Origin: Pedobacter sp. KBS0701
Lineage (GTDB): Bacteria > Bacteroidota > Bacteroidia > Sphingobacteriales > Sphingobacteriaceae
NCBI RefSeq assembly: GCF_005938645.2
Contig: NZ_CP042171.1
Location: 1,922,001 to 1,986,000 of the forward strand
Length of the DNA: 64,000 nt
Reading direction: 5' to 3'
A program made the position numbers and the translations under genes. The first letter of the stretch is position 1; each line of letters starts with the position of its first letter. This document shows, in pieces, positions 56,052 through 64,000 of this stretch. The notes beneath the pieces are model-generated. The model searched no databases. It was not told the origin of the DNA and worked only from the letters and a program-made list of their open reading frames with translations.

Positions 56052-56273
56052 TTAAATAATGTATTCATGATCAGAACAATACACTAAAATATCGCCTGGT
56101 TGACAATTTAGTGCCTTACAAATTGCCTCCAATGTGCTTAAACGTACAGCTTTTATTTTACCTTGCTTCATAATTGACAAGTTTGATAGTGTGATGTTTG
56201 TTAATTCGGACAGCTTGTTAAGACTCATCTTTCTTTTTGCCATAACGACGTCTAGATTTATCACAATGCTCAT
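56052..56273 (-). CDS. XRE-family (Cro/CI-type) transcriptional regulator
   Basis: The 73-residue protein is almost entirely one helix-turn-helix domain: 'MAKRKMSLNKLSELTNITLSNLSIMKQGKIKAVRLSTLEAICKALN'-type sequence with 'QPGDILVY' at the end. It is of the short YozG-like class usually paired with a DUF2975 membrane protein, as here. The genes overlap by one base. It probably represses its own operon through the inverted repeat at 56912-56946. Confidence 0.9.
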   Translation of the reverse strand: MSIVINLDVVMAKRKMSLNKLSELTNITLSNLSIMKQGKIKAVRLSTLEAICKALNCQPGDILVYCSDHEYII

Positions 56274-56887
56274 TATACTGTTAATTTATTTTCTTCTTCC
56301 AATTCAATTCCCAGCTTAAAAATTTCGATTGCTGCGAACAACGTTATTGAAGTAAACAACAAAGCATAATTTAAAGATGGAGATAGTGTTACGAATTTGC
56401 CAATAGCTAGATTAGTTTGGAAGAATTTATTGGCAATTAAGGTAAATACAAACTGCATAATAGGAATTACTAAGATTATTGCTGCAATTACTCTTAAATG
56501 ATTAAGATTACTTTTAACAAAGTTTTTATCCGTCTCGAAATTTTTAAAGATCTGTTTTATTTTATAGGTAATAAATATTACAATCCCTATGCAAATTGTA
56601 TAAACAACTGTCATCAGAGCCACATTTTGCCAGCTGGATTCTAGATGAAATACTAAAAAACCGGCATAACTGTCAAGCCTTGCATCGGCAATATTTGTAT
56701 TCACAGCTTTAATACTCATGATGTTTGTCTGAGAAAAACTTACAGGAAACATTACGACAATTTGTGTTCTAAAGTTAGCAGATGCTAAAAATAATGATAG
56801 AAACGATACACCACATAGTATTTCCAAATACCATAGAATAGTTATCATCTGGGATAGAATTTTAAATTTGGTTCTTGAGGCTGGCAT
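56273..56887 (-). CDS. DUF2975 membrane protein
   Basis: The 204-residue protein has four membrane segments (about 12-33, 78-100, 127-148 and 166-188), matching the DUF2975 family in length and layout. It ends with 'GIELEEENKLTV', and an acid-rich end after the last helix is common in the family. DUF2975 proteins are always found with small XRE regulators; the membrane partner may sense a signal and control the regulator, but this is not proved. It is the first gene of the pair. Confidence 0.88.
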   Translation of the reverse strand: MPASRTKFKILSQMITILWYLEILCGVSFLSLFLASANFRTQIVVMFPVSFSQTNIMSIKAVNTNIADARLDSYAGFLVFHLESSWQNVALMTVVYTICIGIVIFITYKIKQIFKNFETDKNFVKSNLNHLRVIAAIILVIPIMQFVFTLIANKFFQTNLAIGKFVTLSPSLNYALLFTSITLFAAIEIFKLGIELEEENKLTV

Positions 56888-57296: not shown

Positions 57297-57512
57297 ATGA
57301 AAAAAAAGTTTTTTTTAGAAGATCTTTCTAATGAGGACATGTTTTCCTCTTTTGAAAATCACAAACTCCCTACCTTGGCCTCCTCAAATCTAAGAGGAGG
57401 AACTTCGACTACCTTATGTAAAACAGACGAGGGCTTTTTAGACAGAGATACTGAAGGTCCAACTGCAGAAAACCTCAAAGACAAAACTTGCGTCCCTAAA
57501 GTCCCTGACTAA
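57297..57512 (+). CDS. RiPP precursor peptide 1 (GG leader, grasp-with-spasm type)
   Basis: The 71-residue peptide has a leader with 'LEDLSNEDMFSSFE', then Gly34-Gly35, and a 36-residue core beginning 'TSTTLCKTDEG'. The double Gly is the expected cut site of the C39-peptidase exporter encoded downstream. The core contains two Cys (41 and near the end), several Asp/Glu and Thr/Ser/Lys, the residue types linked by ATP-grasp enzymes in graspetides. It is the first of three paralogues, 160 bases before the second. High confidence in precursor status rests on paralogy and context. Confidence 0.88.
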   Translation: MKKKFFLEDLSNEDMFSSFENHKLPTLASSNLRGGTSTTLCKTDEGFLDRDTEGPTAENLKDKTCVPKVPD

Positions 57513-57672
57513 TTGCTTTAACTAACTTTAATTTGTTAAACGTAACTTCTGCTGCAAGATGCGCAACATGAAGTTTATTGAGTTCAGCTACTGGTTGTTC
57601 TAAAAGAATAATCTAAAAATTTGAGCTGCGCAAGTCTTATTTAAATTATTAACCCTTAAAAATTTTTAAACA

Positions 57673-57894
57673 ATGAAAAAAAACATTGAACTGGAAAGCC
57701 TATCTAATGAGGATATTTTCGGAACTTTCGAAAAAAGTAGACTTAACACTTTGGCAACAAGTAATATCAAAGGTGGCACAAGTACAACTCTATGCAAAAC
57801 AGACGAAAGTGCTTTAGATGAAGATACTTATCACTCACAGGAAAGTCTTAAAGATAAAAGATGCTCAGGAACTATAACTGAACCACTTCCTTAA
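57673..57894 (+). CDS. RiPP precursor peptide 2
   Basis: The 73-residue peptide repeats the leader motif ('LESLSNEDIFGTFE'), Gly34-Gly35 and core start 'TSTTLCKTDES'. The core ('ALDEDTYHSQESLKDKRC') keeps the spacing of acidic residues and the second Cys of its siblings. Variation is greatest in the last ten residues. It follows precursor 1 after a 160-base non-coding gap and precedes precursor 3 by 14 bases, so 2 and 3 share a transcript. Confidence 0.88.
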   Translation: MKKNIELESLSNEDIFGTFEKSRLNTLATSNIKGGTSTTLCKTDESALDEDTYHSQESLKDKRCSGTITEPLP

Positions 57895-57908
57895 CCGTAT
57901 TTAAAATC

Positions 57909-58121
57909 ATGAAAAAATTAGAAGATTTAACAAACAAAGATTTGTTTTCGACCTTTGAGGATCATAAAGTAACTAGACTTCAATCAACGAATTTGAGAGG
58001 CGGAACGAGTACTGCCTTATGCAAAACAGACCAAAACCTAGCTGATCCCGATTCTGAGGCTTCTCAAGAAAACCCTAAGGATAGTCGCTGTAAAAAGGTT
58101 ACCCCTCCTGTTCCAGACTAA
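57909..58121 (+). CDS. RiPP precursor peptide 3
   Basis: The 70-residue peptide has a shorter leader ('LEDLTNKDLFSTFE'), Gly31-Gly32 and core 'TSTALCKTDQNLADPDSEA'. The second Cys lies in 'KDSRCKK'. A Thr to Ala change at core position 4 and Pro after Asp distinguish it from the other two, suggesting diversification around a fixed ring scaffold. A hairpin at 58176-58204 follows before the receptor gene. Confidence 0.88.
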   Translation: MKKLEDLTNKDLFSTFEDHKVTRLQSTNLRGGTSTALCKTDQNLADPDSEASQENPKDSRCKKVTPPVPD

Positions 58122-58175
58122 ATAAGTTCGGTACACAGATCGCGAGTCTGTTATTTATTTTTGAAATAAAGATGT

Positions 58176-58204
58176 ATTACAGGGAGTCTTGGATTCCTTG
58201 TAAT
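58176..58204 (+). terminator. 13-bp hairpin between precursors and receptor gene (attenuator or processing site)
   Basis: ATTACAGGGAGTC pairs over all 13 positions (two G-U) with GATTCCTTGTAAT around a TTG loop. No T-tract follows, so it is not a standard terminator. It may stabilise the precursor mRNA or reduce transcription into the exporter genes. Confidence 0.45.
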
Positions 58205-58247
58205 ATTCCATATTTAAATTCTCTCTTATTTGTTATCTTTTCCTTCT

Positions 58248-60626
58248 ATGCGATTGCTCTTGCTTATCTTTTGTGCATTAATTTGCTGTAGTCCATTATT
58301 TGCCCAGCAATCTTTAAAAGTAGCTGGTTCCATTAGGGATTCTTCTTCACTAAAACAGATCCCTGGGGCGGTAGTACTTGCTAAAATCACCGGTCCCGGT
58401 TTCCAGACAAAGACATCTAACTTAATTACCAACTCGGAGGGTTCTTATTCTTTAAATATTCCGAGAAATCACCAATTGAGCATGCAGATTAATTCGATCG
58501 GCTATAAAAGTAAAATTATAGATCTGGTGGTTAATAGGGATACCACAATAAATATTTTGCTAGGACCGGCAATTATTGAACTCAAGGAGGTAAAAATAAC
58601 CGACCGTTCAAAAGGTCAGCTTAAGTTAGTTCCAGGAGGCTTTAATATAATTACAGATACCAAAGCATTCTCACCATCGACATTCGTATCAACATATTTA
58701 AAGTATGTTCCTGGAATTACGGTTTCACCTAAGGGTTCAATTTCTTTTTTAGGTAATGACTTAAAAGTTTATGTAGATGGAATTTTTGTAAACTTATCTG
58801 GACAAGACCTGCTTAACTATCTTCATCAACTGACGGTAACCGATCTTGCGAGCATTGATATTCTTACTGAACCTGGTGCTAGTTACGATGCAAACAGCGG
58901 TAGCATCATTAATTTTAGAACCAAAAAGTTTCTCGCCGTTGGACTTCAAAATATTCTAGGTTTAGGCCTGACAACACATGATAAAGCCTACGTAAATAAT
59001 TCTATGCAGTTCAGCAGGGGCAAATTCCGTATTGTTGGAAGTGTCCTGGCAAATCACAGTAATTTTTATGACAATACTTACTCTAGTTTAGTATCCAGTT
59101 CAATGCCGAATATAAATTCAGAGCAGGTACTAAATTTAGCAGAAACGCCACAAAATAATTTAGGATTAGATCTACGTGTAGACTATCGAGTGAATAAGAG
59201 TCTTCAAACTGGCTTTGATATATCTACCGATTTTGTGTCAAGTAATTACGACTATTCATACCATATTGTCAACAACAATGTAGCCAAATCTATCGCAACA
59301 AATTTTGATTCTGACGATAGAAGAACCAAAATAAGCGGTTATTTTCAAGTAGACTTGAAAAAAGGACAATTTCAAATTGATTTCTCGCACATTAACCAAA
59401 ATGGAAATAGTGAGGTTATTAATAATTTGAAACCATTAACTAATCCGGGTTCCGGCATCACGACATTTAACTCCACTAGAAATGAAAATTATTTTATTAA
59501 CCTTAAACAGACACATAAGTTTAGCGATAAACTTTCAATTACTGCTGGGTTAAAGTATACTAATAATCGTTTGAATAATAATTTTTCACCTGCGTTACAA
59601 GGAGTAGTTGAATCATCAATGACCGATTATAAAGAAGATATTTACGCGGCTTTTATTGAATCATCTTTAACTACGAAAAAGTTCTCCTTTCAGATAGGTC
59701 TCCGGGCGGAACACACCAATCTTCTTGTTATACAGGAAAAATCTTCACTGCAAACAAATAAAATTACTTACTCCAATTTGTTTCCCAATGTTGTATTCGT
59801 TATTCCAAAATTAATTGGCATTAAAACCCATATATTTTTTAATAGTGGAATCTCAAGACCAAATTATAGTCAGTACTTGCCGTTCCCAGAGAACTTTAAT
59901 TTAAATGCTGTCGCGTACAATGTCGGAAATGTCAATCTAAAAGCTGCGACTACATATGGGTACGGGCTTAAGTTCAATAAAAATTTTGAGAAAGACTATT
60001 CAATAATAGCTATCTTAAAAAATACTAAAGGAATTAATCCGGTAATATCACTACCGTTTATAATTCAGGGTTCTATTTTCAACGCGCCGGTTAACCTTAA
60101 TGATATAAATGTATACGGCCTTACTCTGATTTTAAGTAAACAATGGAAATCGTCGAGCATTACGGTTTCACCAGTATACGAAAAAAGATTTTTAAAAACT
60201 TCCGATGTTGCTTATGAGAATCAAAATTTATCAGTCAGTCTTAATGGAATAAATTATTTCGCAATTCACGCAAATTATAACTTCGAACCTATTTCAAAAT
60301 TTTATGCCTCAGTAAATATCAGCTATGGGACTCGGCAGAACCAACCTGTGGGTATTCAGAGGGGATCAGGTTATTCTTCAATCAATGTAAGCCGGGGGGT
60401 TTTCAAAGACAAACTAAGTGTTAGTCTTGAGTTATCTGATCCATTTAATTGGTCCAGAAATTTTACTTACCAAAATTTTAACGGAGTATCTTTCGATAAT
60501 CAAAATAAACCAGAGACTAGAATGCTTTACTTTTCTGCATCCTACACAATCGGCAGACTTAAACGGAGTAAAGCAAGTAGTTTTAGTTTTGAAGACGATT
60601 CAAGACTTGAAGAATTCAGAAAATAA
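58248..60626 (+). CDS. Outer-membrane TonB-dependent-receptor-like beta-barrel protein
   Basis: ATG 58248 gives a clean signal peptide ('LLLIFCALICCSPLFAQ') and 792 residues; a TTG six codons upstream is less likely. The mature protein opens with a carboxypeptidase-regulatory-like domain ('VAGSIRDSSSLKQIPGAVV', about 22-105). A plug domain follows (to about 225; 'VYVDGIFVNLSGQDLLNYL', 'GASYDANSGSIINFRTKK'), then a large beta-barrel. It belongs to the 'outer membrane beta-barrel family' of receptors. It sits between precursors and exporter and may take the product across the outer membrane or re-import it. The direction is unknown. Confidence 0.88.
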   Translation: MRLLLLIFCALICCSPLFAQQSLKVAGSIRDSSSLKQIPGAVVLAKITGPGFQTKTSNLITNSEGSYSLNIPRNHQLSMQINSIGYKSKIIDLVVNRDTTINILLGPAIIELKEVKITDRSKGQLKLVPGGFNIITDTKAFSPSTFVSTYLKYVPGITVSPKGSISFLGNDLKVYVDGIFVNLSGQDLLNYLHQLTVTDLASIDILTEPGASYDANSGSIINFRTKKFLAVGLQNILGLGLTTHDKAYVNNSMQFSRGKFRIVGSVLANHSNFYDNTYSSLVSSSMPNINSEQVLNLAETPQNNLGLDLRVDYRVNKSLQTGFDISTDFVSSNYDYSYHIVNNNVAKSIATNFDSDDRRTKISGYFQVDLKKGQFQIDFSHINQNGNSEVINNLKPLTNPGSGITTFNSTRNENYFINLKQTHKFSDKLSITAGLKYTNNRLNNNFSPALQGVVESSMTDYKEDIYAAFIESSLTTKKFSFQIGLRAEHTNLLVIQEKSSLQTNKITYSNLFPNVVFVIPKLIGIKTHIFFNSGISRPNYSQYLPFPENFNLNAVAYNVGNVNLKAATTYGYGLKFNKNFEKDYSIIAILKNTKGINPVISLPFIIQGSIFNAPVNLNDINVYGLTLILSKQWKSSSITVSPVYEKRFLKTSDVAYENQNLSVSLNGINYFAIHANYNFEPISKFYASVNISYGTRQNQPVGIQRGSGYSSINVSRGVFKDKLSVSLELSDPFNWSRNFTYQNFNGVSFDNQNKPETRMLYFSASYTIGRLKRSKASSFSFEDDSRLEEFRK

Positions 60627-60662
60627 TATTCTCGCTCTCTGTCACTACATTTCACAATTTAA

Positions 60663-63005
60663 ATGAAATTCTTTAAAAAATTCCCTCATTTCCAACAGTT
60701 AGAATCTAATGACTGTGGCCCCGCCTGTTTAAAAATTATTTTTGAACACTATGGATATTCAGTGCCATTCAAAGAAATCCGTAATAAAAGTAAGCTTGAT
60801 TGGAAAGGTACAAGTCTCTATCGTATAGAAACAATTGCTAAAGAATACAAATTCAAGACTATTGCGATTAGCTGCTCTTGGGAAAAATTCTCAAAGGAAG
60901 CGATATTACCGGCAATTGCGATGATAAACCAGCGTCATTATGCAGTCGTTTATAAGATCACTTCCGCACATGTATGCGTTTCTGATCCGGCAATAGGTAG
61001 ATTAAAATATACTATAGAGGATTTCAAGCGAATCTGGGAAACGGAATCTGGAGATGGAATTGCTCTTTTGCTGCACCCTACTGAAAAATATCGATCCCAA
61101 GAGACAAGCTATCAGAAAAGCCGCGATTTTTCTGATGAAGTTAGAAAATACATAAACAAAAATCAGCGTGCTTTTATATACATATTCTGCGGCCTGTTAA
61201 TGGGCAGTGCAATCCAGTTATTATTACCTTTTTCAACACAAATTATCGTTGACGAGGGGATCGGTAATAAAAACTTAAGTCTTATTGTTATTATTTGTCT
61301 AGGACAGATGATGTTTCTACTATCAAGAGCTGTAATCGATCTTATCAGACGTTGGATATTAATACATCTAGCAACCATATTCAATATTTCCTTAATTCAT
61401 AATTTCCTGCTTAAGCTTATTAAACTACCACTAGCATATTTTGAGTTTAGGTCTCACGGCGATTTACTACAACGGGTTGAAGACCATAAAAGGATAGACA
61501 GACTTATTAACTCATCATCACTAAATGCTGCATTTTCATTAATTACATTTATACTATATGGAATTATACTTCTGATCTACAACAAATATATATTCATATT
61601 TTTCATTTTGTTTAGTATCATATATTTCGCTTATAACGTTTATTTCACAAAATATAGAGAGTTATTAGATTATAAACGCTTCCAGAAATCTTCGGAAGCA
61701 AATGATTCTATATTTCAAATGATATTTGGAATAAATGAAATCAAAATATATCAGGCCGAATCACTTAAACTACACGAATGGAAACGCGTTCAGCATTCAA
61801 TATTTAAGATAAATATCCAGTCAGCACGTTATTTAAATTTCCAGGAAGTTGGAAGCCTGGTACTTAGCGAAGGGAAAAACTTTGCAATCTTATTTTATTG
61901 TAGTTACCTAGTTATACAAGGACATCTTACCTTGGGAATGATGTTGTCTGTTCAATACATCATCGGACTGTTAAACGTTCCTTTATTTGAATTTATCAGA
62001 TTTCTGAACGATTATACAGAGGCTAAAGCGTCATATGAAAGAATTGTAGATATTTATGATTTTCCAGATGAGCAGAGTGAAATCGCCGCCGGAGAAGAAA
62101 AACATATTTCACCATATTTCCCACAGCCGTTGGGACAGGTCGCTTATGAAGAAGAATTGTTTAACCTTAAAAGTGCTAGCATTGATTTCTCCAACAGAAA
62201 AACCAATGCTGTATTCGCCGACTCCAGTGACGTCGCTTCGAATCCGACACGCGAGTTTGCGCTTAACATCGAGAATGCTTCTTTTACTTATCAAAAATCT
62301 TACGGCGGCGATGATGAAATATTCGGATTACAGGAAATAAACTTCAAATTGGAAGCTGGAAAAAAACTTGCTATAGTAGGTTCCAGCGGAAGTGGAAAGA
62401 CTACCTTACTTAAATTATTACTGAGATTTTATCCACTTGATTCTGGAAATATTTCCGTAAATGATGAAGATTTTTATAAAGTTCCAGTCGAAGAATGGAG
62501 AAGCTTGTGCAGTTCGGTAATGCAGGATGGATATATATTTTCAGATACAATAGCTAACAACATAGCGTTGGGCGATCCTAACCCCTGTAATGAGAAAGTA
62601 CAAAGGGCTGCGAAATTAGCAGAAATACATGATTTTATCTTCACTATGCCCGGTAAATTTGAAACGTTTATAGGAAATAATGGGCAAGGATTAAGCCAGG
62701 GTCAAAAACAGCGCATTCTCATTGCAAGAGCAATTTATAAAGATTCACCTTTCTTTTTCTTCGATGAAGCAACTTCCTCCCTGGATTCGCTTAATGAAAG
62801 GAATATCATGGACAATATCTACAATCACTTATCCAGAAAAACTATGATAATTATTGCCCATAGACTGAGTACGGTAGTAAAAGCCGATGAGATCTTAGTT
62901 ATGGATAAGGGCAGGATTGTTGAAAGAGGTACTCACCGGGAACTGGTGGAAAACCGGGGTTATTATTTTAATCTTGTTAAAAATCAACTGGAACTAGCAA
63001 AGTAA
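60663..63005 (+). CDS. C39-peptidase ABC exporter (PCAT-type)
   Basis: The 780-residue protein combines leader peptidase, membrane and ATPase domains. The C39 domain has Gln12, Cys18 in 'NDCGPACL', His92 and Asp108, so it should cut after the GG of the precursors. The membrane domain runs from about 165 to 450. The ATPase has Walker A at 573-581 ('GSSGSGKTT'), signature 'LSQGQKQRI' and 'FFFFDEATSSLDS'. A linker of about 60 extra residues (473-535), rich in polar residues, separates the membrane and ATPase domains. The stop overlaps the next start by one base. Confidence 0.95.
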   Translation: MKFFKKFPHFQQLESNDCGPACLKIIFEHYGYSVPFKEIRNKSKLDWKGTSLYRIETIAKEYKFKTIAISCSWEKFSKEAILPAIAMINQRHYAVVYKITSAHVCVSDPAIGRLKYTIEDFKRIWETESGDGIALLLHPTEKYRSQETSYQKSRDFSDEVRKYINKNQRAFIYIFCGLLMGSAIQLLLPFSTQIIVDEGIGNKNLSLIVIICLGQMMFLLSRAVIDLIRRWILIHLATIFNISLIHNFLLKLIKLPLAYFEFRSHGDLLQRVEDHKRIDRLINSSSLNAAFSLITFILYGIILLIYNKYIFIFFILFSIIYFAYNVYFTKYRELLDYKRFQKSSEANDSIFQMIFGINEIKIYQAESLKLHEWKRVQHSIFKINIQSARYLNFQEVGSLVLSEGKNFAILFYCSYLVIQGHLTLGMMLSVQYIIGLLNVPLFEFIRFLNDYTEAKASYERIVDIYDFPDEQSEIAAGEEKHISPYFPQPLGQVAYEEELFNLKSASIDFSNRKTNAVFADSSDVASNPTREFALNIENASFTYQKSYGGDDEIFGLQEINFKLEAGKKLAIVGSSGSGKTTLLKLLLRFYPLDSGNISVNDEDFYKVPVEEWRSLCSSVMQDGYIFSDTIANNIALGDPNPCNEKVQRAAKLAEIHDFIFTMPGKFETFIGNNGQGLSQGQKQRILIARAIYKDSPFFFFDEATSSLDSLNERNIMDNIYNHLSRKTMIIIAHRLSTVVKADEILVMDKGRIVERGTHRELVENRGYYFNLVKNQLELAK

Positions 63006-63451
63006 TGAAGAAACTTTATACAACAACCGTAGTGCTTTATCTAACGTGTACAATACTTTTATTGACTTATCTTATCTCAGTAAAAGTTTCGATTACTAGC
63101 CTCTATAATGGGCAAGTGATTACTCTTAACGAGCTAAAGGATCAAAGCCTTAATAAAAGTTTAGCCAGTGTAATTTTTAAGTCAGATACTGAAGTAAAGT
63201 TTAATAAAGATAGTCAGGTTTTATTTGCTTATAAAACAGTATTAAATGATTCGCTTACATCATCGCAAGTCGAGGTCGAAAGCCTTGATGGAAAGGGTGC
63301 CAAGGGTGAGTGGGTAATAAGGTTTAATAAAAACTTTGTACCAGCCAAAAAAGACAACGGAAAAATATACGAACCGAAAGTTATAGTTCGCGATAAAAGC
63401 CCAATTTATAAAGTTTTATTGAAAAGTATTTTTAACCCATTTAATAAATGA
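63005..63451 (+). CDS. Membrane-anchored protein in the exporter operon
   Basis: The 148-residue protein has one membrane segment at about 8-27 and a periplasmic part with mixed beta strands ('ASVIFKSDTEVKFNKDSQVL', 'GEWVIRFNKNFVPAKKDNGK'). It overlaps both neighbours (TAATG and ATGA), so it is translated with them. I do not recognise a family. Its place and topology fit a very short periplasmic adaptor, a chaperone or an immunity protein. It lacks the long coiled coil of HlyD proteins. Confidence 0.75.
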   Translation: MKKLYTTTVVLYLTCTILLLTYLISVKVSITSLYNGQVITLNELKDQSLNKSLASVIFKSDTEVKFNKDSQVLFAYKTVLNDSLTSSQVEVESLDGKGAKGEWVIRFNKNFVPAKKDNGKIYEPKVIVRDKSPIYKVLLKSIFNPFNK

Positions 63452-64000
63452 TTTTAATTTTTACCCAAAATTTTGAACCCTCGACCGATAAAGTTATAGA
63501 GTGGCTTAAATATTATAATAAGCCTTACATTCGGGTTAATTGTAATACCGATGCAATCAAGGATGTCTGTTTTGAGCTTTTAGATGAAGCGATAGATTCA
63601 CAGGAAGGAGAAATTCCGAAGATACATATAGATAAGGTTGTTAAAAAATTAACAATTGGCCTGACGTCAGGCATTTCTATCGACCTTAAAACGATAACAA
63701 GCGTATGGTACAGACGTGGAGGAATGCCTTCCTATGACACCAGTTCTGTAAGTTTAGAAGCTCTTAAATCCAGTTTTTTTGTGCAGAAGACAAGGGAATA
63801 TATGCGTGAGGAATACGATGAAATTGTTCGTTACATATATTTTTATTTATTCGAAAATCCTAGGATAAGGTCTCTTGGAAATCCTTATCGTACGGGTTCT
63901 GACAAGCCTCGGTGTCTTACTATTGCGAACCTTTTTGGCTTAAAAATCCCAGACATGTATATAACTTCTAATAAAAGTAATTTACGGTCACTATTAACTA
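63448..64000 (+). CDS. gwsG: ATP-grasp peptide maturase, grasp-with-spasm system (3' end beyond window)
   Basis: An open frame from ATG 63448 (within ATGA of the previous gene) runs to the window end, 184 codons. It opens 'ILIFTQNFEPSTDKVIEWL' and has 'TSVWYRRGGMPSYD' near residues 90-103, then 'PRCLTIANLFGLKIPDMYITSNK'. These are the N-terminal features of the GwsG ATP-grasp maturases related to microviridin ligases. Such enzymes form ester or amide links between Asp/Glu and Ser/Thr/Lys side chains. The nucleotide-binding core lies outside the window. Confidence 0.85.
   Translation, partial: MILIFTQNFEPSTDKVIEWLKYYNKPYIRVNCNTDAIKDVCFELLDEAIDSQEGEIPKIHIDKVVKKLTIGLTSGISIDLKTITSVWYRRGGMPSYDTSSVSLEALKSSFFVQKTREYMREEYDEIVRYIYFYLFENPRIRSLGNPYRTGSDKPRCLTIANLFGLKIPDMYITSNKSNLRSLLT

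Follow-up and report, generated by a model that had tools for sequence, protein, structure and literature searches.

The window, the whole stretch of 64,000 nucleotides analysed (positions 1922001 to 1986000 of a 6.33 Mb single-contig genome), runs at its 3' end into a genuine and complete grasp-with-spasm graspetide cluster, known in kind and rare in its core. To judge from its sequence, the SPASM protein of this cluster, GwsS, has no radical SAM site and is not a radical SAM enzyme. Reading was continued 10 kb beyond the window, and features there are given in window-equivalent coordinates. On the forward strand, the genes for the precursors A1, A2 and A3 are followed by those for a barrel protein, a C39 ABC exporter, a protein of 148 aa, the ligase GwsG, a protein of 72 aa, GwsS and a protein of 489 aa. 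The first-pass annotation had placed three paralogous GG-leader precursors, a C39 exporter and an ATP-grasp gene, visible there by its start, in one direction, and the list of open reading frames bears out these positions. The grasp-with-spasm assignment stands as well, with the cut-offs of the curated models TIGR04192 and TIGR04193 exceeded by GwsG and GwsS, respectively. The absence of a downstream maturase had been named as refutation of the assignment; GwsG is complete past the window and GwsS lies adjacent. The SPASM/radical SAM-like maturase sought to the right was found in part, as the gene downstream encodes a SPASM protein whereas the radical SAM motif and domain are absent. Stops and starts overlap by 1 base at 63005 and by 4 bases at 63448-63451, whereas gaps lie between all genes from A1 up to the exporter. 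The cluster is placed in graspetide branch 5 of Makarova et al. 2022 (PMC8939145) and is probably group 14 of Carter et al. 2026 (PMC13097080), the latter from the shared co-occurrence with SPASM proteins in the available text of that paper.

Precursor A1 (57297-57512, forward strand, 71 aa) has a GG leader and the core TSTTLCKTDEGFLDRDTEGPTAENLKDKTCVPKVPD. A2 (57673-57894, forward strand, 73 aa) and A3 (57909-58121, forward strand, 70 aa) were recognized by open reading frame and alignment in the same way and carry the cores TSTTLCKTDESALDEDTYHSQESLKDKRCSGTITEPLP and TSTALCKTDQNLADPDSEASQENPKDSRCKKVTPPVPD. All three share the motifs noted earlier, TST(T/A)LCKTD, DxD(T/S) and KDxxC. Pairwise identities of A1 to A3 range between 52 and 63% with dN of 0.31-0.43 and dS beyond the range of the method. 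With the two precursors of a second locus (L081) included, identities are 52-66% and dN 0.29-0.43, and dS was computable in three of the ten pairs (1.5-2.4, against dN of 0.29-0.35), the other seven being out of range. These values indicate purifying selection and hence that A1 to A3 are real genes. The core consensus of the five precursors is [TS]STxLCKT[DT]...DxD[TS]...E...Dx(x)C. Since the aspartate of KTD is replaced by threonine in one of the five, ring formation does not require it. None of the precursor models of NCBIfam (E 0.01) and Pfam (E 0.1) matched A1, A2 or A3, which is not a defining feature, as precursor diversity is a known trait of the branch. The usual graspetide leader motif Phhx(1,2)h was not seen in the five aligned precursors, and its absence from branch 5 is reported in the available part of PMC8939145.

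A profile of the precursors detected A1-A3-like sequences in two of 145 genomes of the genus and in one of 395 genomes of a phylum sample, the latter being the source genome itself; plasmids gave no match. The exact string GGTSTxLCKTD had no hit in a collection of species genomes, a weak result because records of near relatives may be left out of that collection. Within the searches made, the TST[TA]LCKTD core thus appears confined to the source genome and one congener. In the second carrier (G287, locus L081) the gene order is identical, with two precursors, and a relative of the 489-aa protein (30% identity) was found in the same two of 145 genus genomes. GwsS itself is more widespread: TIGR04193 matched in 70 of 399 genomes of a family sample, 51 of them above the cut-off, and the same-genus genomes G305, G390 and G396 carry the gene. 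Further GwsS genes (L109, L113, L121 and L127) lie on contigs filed as Gemmatimonadetes, Beijerinckiaceae, Thermoanaerobaculum and Acidobacteriota, which may reflect horizontal transfer or misbinning.

The barrel gene (58230-60626, forward strand), a cluster member absent from the first-pass listing, encodes an outer-membrane beta-barrel protein resembling TonB-dependent receptors (OMP_b-brl_3, 2e-43; CarbopepD_reg_2, 1.1e-10). An ATG at 58248, ahead of a signal-peptide-like stretch, is a likelier start than the listed TTG. A barrel gene occupies the equivalent position in L081. The exporter (60663-63005, forward strand) combines Peptidase_C39 (3.9e-32) with ABC_membrane and ABC_tran domains and is predicted to cleave after the leader GG before export; its best NCBIfam model is TIGR03796, with 395 bits under a cut-off of 853. 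The protein of 148 aa (63005-63451, forward strand) has one N-terminal hydrophobic helix and no family match in NCBIfam or Pfam. Homologues occur in two of 61 loci examined, the own locus and L081, and a structure model was discarded at a pLDDT of 47. Upstream on the opposite strand, a Cro/C1-type regulator with an HTH_26 profile match (56052-56273) and a DUF2975 membrane protein (56273-56887) form a possible regulatory pair. On the 3' side of the cluster (L002:12754-15714), HTH_17, a MobC-like mobilisation protein, a HEPN-domain protein and an HTH_3 regulator suggest a mobile-element remnant.

GwsG (63448-64000 within the window and on to genome position 1986485, window-equivalent 64485; forward strand, 345 aa) is an ATP-grasp graspetide synthetase with 283.2 bits against TIGR04192 (cut-off 230). 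It aligns with the solved ATP-grasp ligases 7m4s, 7mgv, 5ig9, 5ig8 and 9bou and keeps the motifs DFR and FLEINP, the latter in the ExN region. Of 131 unique homologues, a set including the best 80 of 165 loci, 115 show D[FWY]R and 123 show E-x-N. The DFR-type and ExN motifs are shared with the microviridin-type ligases (7m4s AMdnB, 7mgv CdnC, 5ig8/5ig9). An identity as a microviridin ligase was nonetheless rejected: GwsG scores 96-97 bits against 475/425 for TIGR04184/04185 (97 bits where MvdC requires 425), extra partner proteins are encoded here, and the precursor alignment has no leader of the PFFARFL type, which we take to be the microviridin leader motif.

The small protein of 72 aa (window-equivalent 64482-64700, L002:8483-8701, forward strand) was recognized as an open reading frame with LPLP and KPIS motifs. 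An exact KPIS occurs in the open frame directly 5' of 67 of 137 GwsS genes (a set including the best 80 of 165 loci), against a background of 2 in 1895 windows drawn at random from these loci. Counting variants such as KPVS, KSIS and RPIS raises this to 95 of 137, with the variant list picked by the analyst and a few rows plainly due to chance. In the available text of PMC8939145 the family is named by LPL, and at some loci unrelated small proteins are found in that place. The C-terminal KPIS tail suggests that many small proteins of this position belong together, and it may already be displayed in the figures of PMC8939145.

GwsS (window-equivalent 64690-65718, L002:8691-9719, forward strand) starts 204 bases past the stop of GwsG, with the 72-aa reading frame in between, and reaches 286.7 bits against TIGR04193 (cut-off 175). 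It has no CxxxCxxC. The motif was absent from all 64 homologues of a family search and from all 138 unique homologues of an overlapping pooled set that includes the best 80 of 165 named loci; a looser cysteine triplet ahead of the SPASM region was likewise found in none of these 138. At E 0.01, Pfam Radical_SAM matched none and Pfam SPASM 45 of 67 GwsS homologues, and any cysteine near the loop that follows barrel strand 1, the expected SAM-cluster site, was present in 7 of the 67. As a control, CxxxCxxC was recovered at 17 of the 19 Radical_SAM loci of the source genome, a lenient count in which any reading frame of at least 200 codons in a 3.4-kb stretch sufficed. None of these 19 matches lies inside the cluster, and the nearest Radical_SAM gene (1952690-1953211) sits some 26 kb upstream from A1.

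The SPASM cysteines, on the other hand, are kept. GwsS matches the seven-cysteine pattern with C250, C266, C304, C307, C313, C316 and C330, and each of the seven is present in 57-63 of the 64 homologues; seven divergent homologues of the 64 did not match the CxxC-x5-CxxC pattern used. In a second alignment (A3) the cysteines are found in 65-67 of 67 sequences, a partly circular count, as these loci were found by patterns containing those cysteines. Against TIGR04085, GwsS scores 24.0 bits, just under the cut-off of 27. Beyond the seven SPASM cysteines, C226, C14 and C129 are kept in 57, 49 and 39 of the 64 homologues, respectively; in the pattern-selected set, C14 in the RRE-like domain and C129 in the barrel are present in 67 of 67 and 65 of 67.

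The protein modelled was the homologue L099, 42% identical to GwsS (67 alignment rows, pLDDT 93.0). In the model, an RRE-like domain is followed by a barrel, which is shortened, and by a SPASM region. Residues 8-84 superpose on 6jx3, a lasso leader-binding protein, with Z 10.0 and an rmsd of 1.9 Å over 77 residues, and the winged helix also matches 5v1v (Z 9.1). The remainder matches TigE, CteB, SuiB, PqqE and anSME with Z 10-12, for example TigE with Z 12.1 (rmsd 6.9 over 301) and anSME (4k36) with Z 10.3 (rmsd 3.9 over 196). The top eight Foldseek hits were all SuiB or the sactipeptide maturase 5why/5wgg, presumably CteB (E 9e-7 to 2e-4); whole-chain fits were poor (rmsd 11-17 Å, TM 0.28-0.40), and the domain-wise match alone was good. 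A search of PDB sequences with GwsS and its family profile found no relative at E 0.1, two matches at E 0.28 being taken as chance, so that the evidence on the fold is structural only. According to the model, GwsS would share RRE, barrel and SPASM with CteB (5why/5wgg), SuiB and TigE, from which it differs in being shorter, in its shortened barrel and in lacking the SAM-cluster cysteines. We infer an RRE-like and a SPASM part joined by a barrel remnant, and propose that GwsS is an Fe-S protein that binds the leader and acts as partner to the ligase, with leader capture and delivery to GwsG as the simplest role. Such a role fits the leader motif missing from branch 5 (PMC8939145) and the precedent of a partner-dependent synthetase (PMC13097080), as far as the available parts of these papers describe them. 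In that precedent, the rosaritide ligase MirB needs the partner MirC, which bears a weakly RRE-like domain (PMC13097080, available part). The likeness lies in a ligase whose partner has an RRE-like part, the need for the partner being presumed in our case; MirC is SurA-like and actinobacterial, whereas GwsS is a SPASM protein. The available text of PMC8939145 and PMC13097080 does not mention the missing SAM site, and a search of the openly accessible literature for the term grasp-with-spasm gave no match.

The last protein of the cluster (window-equivalent 65729-67198, forward strand, 489 aa) is a membrane protein resembling VKOR/DsbB-thioredoxin fusions. In an alignment with six relatives, six redox cysteines (the VKOR loop pair, a membrane CxxC and a thioredoxin CxxC) are aligned in all seven sequences. 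It scores E 0.01 and 16.7 bits against Pfam DsbB, below the cut-off of 22.1, and the L081 ortholog is below the cut-off for VKOR (E 0.0066); five of the six relatives, all but that of L081, pass VKOR. By these scores the protein is VKOR/DsbB-like and no proven member.

VKOR-type genes occur in 7 of 131 de-duplicated loci, a set including the best 80 of 165. All seven VKOR loci, and 28 of 112 others, have one or more cores with an even number of cysteines (Fisher p 1.2e-4; same set including the best 80 of 165), the 112 being those with a detected precursor among 124 VKOR-less loci in all. The even counts in the seven loci are 2, 2, 4, 2, 2, 8 and 2; 11 of the 14 cores detected there have an even count of at least two, and the remaining three have 0, 0 and 1. 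A core with at least two cysteines is present in seven of seven VKOR loci against 46 of 112 (p 0.003), and one with exactly two in five of seven against 21 of 112 (p 0.005). The statistic is post hoc, and the precursor rule was widened after inspection of the loci and applied to both groups alike. Under the initial, stricter rule (same strand, at most 6.5 kb), precursors were detected in four of the seven VKOR loci, three of these with even cysteine counts; of the three missed, the source locus (L002) and L081 have precursors 6.8-7.4 kb from GwsS. On the GwsS tree the VKOR label needs six changes, at least three of them forced by supported branches. The tree-controlled comparison covered 124 rows, with the double-locus GwsS rows L062 and L074 and loci without a detected precursor dropped; it yielded three independent pairs, none against the association and too few for significance. 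Genome G377 carries a further VKOR gene (G377:C222), some 9.6 kb beyond a GwsS and not covered by the stretch L068 that was fetched; the L068 core is cysteine-free, and the locus was scored as VKOR-less. In L122, a GG-leader peptide with eight core cysteines (L122:13929-14156) is found beside GwsS and a VKOR gene, and is perhaps a separate cysteine-rich peptide sharing the exporter. For the core cysteines of A1 to A3, a disulfide or thioether had been suggested; of the two, the adjacent VKOR-like gene speaks more for the disulfide, and a radical thioether is unlikely with no SAM site. We cautiously favour a disulfide as the likelier outcome.

Taken together, we consider it fairly probable that the locus is a grasp-with-spasm operon which makes and exports graspetides in the following order. 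The RRE-like N-terminal domain of GwsS, putatively a SPASM Fe-S protein of radical SAM maturase descent that has lost the SAM cluster site, would capture the GG leaders of A1 to A3, and GwsS would present the core to GwsG together with the small LPL/KPIS protein. GwsG would then activate Asp or Glu residues of the C-terminal half with ATP, candidates being those of DxD, the later Glu and the Asp of KDxxC, and link them to Thr or Ser (possibly Lys) of TSTxLCKT with a loss of 18 Da per ring, giving a product with side-chain ester or amide links. The C39 exporter would cut after GG and release the core to the periplasm, where the VKOR/DsbB-thioredoxin-like protein may oxidise the conserved cysteine pair of the core, giving a disulfide, and the barrel protein may aid release or re-uptake.

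Other explanations differ mainly in the part given to GwsS. It could be a radical SAM maturase that converts the two core cysteines to thioethers, as the available text of PMC8939145 suggests, where the SPASM protein is labelled as a radical SAM enzyme; the absence of CxxxCxxC from all 138 homologues and of the Radical_SAM domain from all 67, together with the distance of the nearest Radical_SAM gene, makes this very improbable, and it was rejected on the missing motif and domain. GwsS might instead be catalytic without radical SAM chemistry, using the SPASM [4Fe-4S] clusters or its extra cysteines for redox or sulfur chemistry on the core, such as formation of a thioether or persulfide. The conservation of C226, C14 and C129 and the core cysteines of many group members would agree with such an activity, which we nevertheless hold to be unlikely, since no SAM site is present and 79 of 214 cores detected in VKOR-less loci are cysteine-free, so that cysteine chemistry is not the general role of GwsS. 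An accessory role of GwsS and the LPL protein in export or regulation, with GwsG ligating alone and the cysteines free or serving as thioester donors, is in line with the lack of precedent for partner dependence before 2026 (PMC13097080, available part), which implies that most characterised ligases work alone. Of the 141 loci fetched by way of GwsS, however, 137 contain GwsG as well, and the Phhx(1,2)h leader motif is reportedly missing from the branch and was not seen in the five precursors, so that this explanation also appears improbable. The poor whole-chain fits and the case of G377 led us to raise it slightly and to lower by as little our confidence in the proposed operon with GwsS as leader-binding partner.

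The cluster shares the ATP-grasp, LPL and SPASM proteins, GG precursors, C39 exporter, barrel protein and diversity of cores with the grasp-with-spasm systems (TIGR04192/TIGR04193, branch 5), for which the available part of PMC8939145 describes highly diverse GG precursors, barrel proteins and C39 exporters, with a small LPL protein encoded ahead of the SPASM protein. It differs from them in a core that matches no precursor model and in its VKOR-Trx-like gene, found in 7 of 131 loci. The group comprises 190 loci in that survey and is read there as radical SAM-using. If its SPASM protein has no SAM site, group-wide predictions of radical thioethers should be dropped. Tentatively, and with a little less than even confidence, we suggest that the SPASM protein of the whole group is a retired radical SAM maturase that has lost the SAM site and some of its barrel, has retained the RRE and the auxiliary Fe-S clusters, and has turned into a leader-binding and perhaps redox-gated adaptor needed by the ligase, with the LPL/KPIS protein as third subunit, and that the subset with VKOR, the present cluster among them, makes a hybrid in which a disulfide locks the lactone/lactam cage. 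GwsS would then be a clean test case for the change from enzyme to adaptor, heterologous expression of the ligase only may fail for want of its partner, and a product of two chemistries, with ester or amide rings and a disulfide, is plausible.
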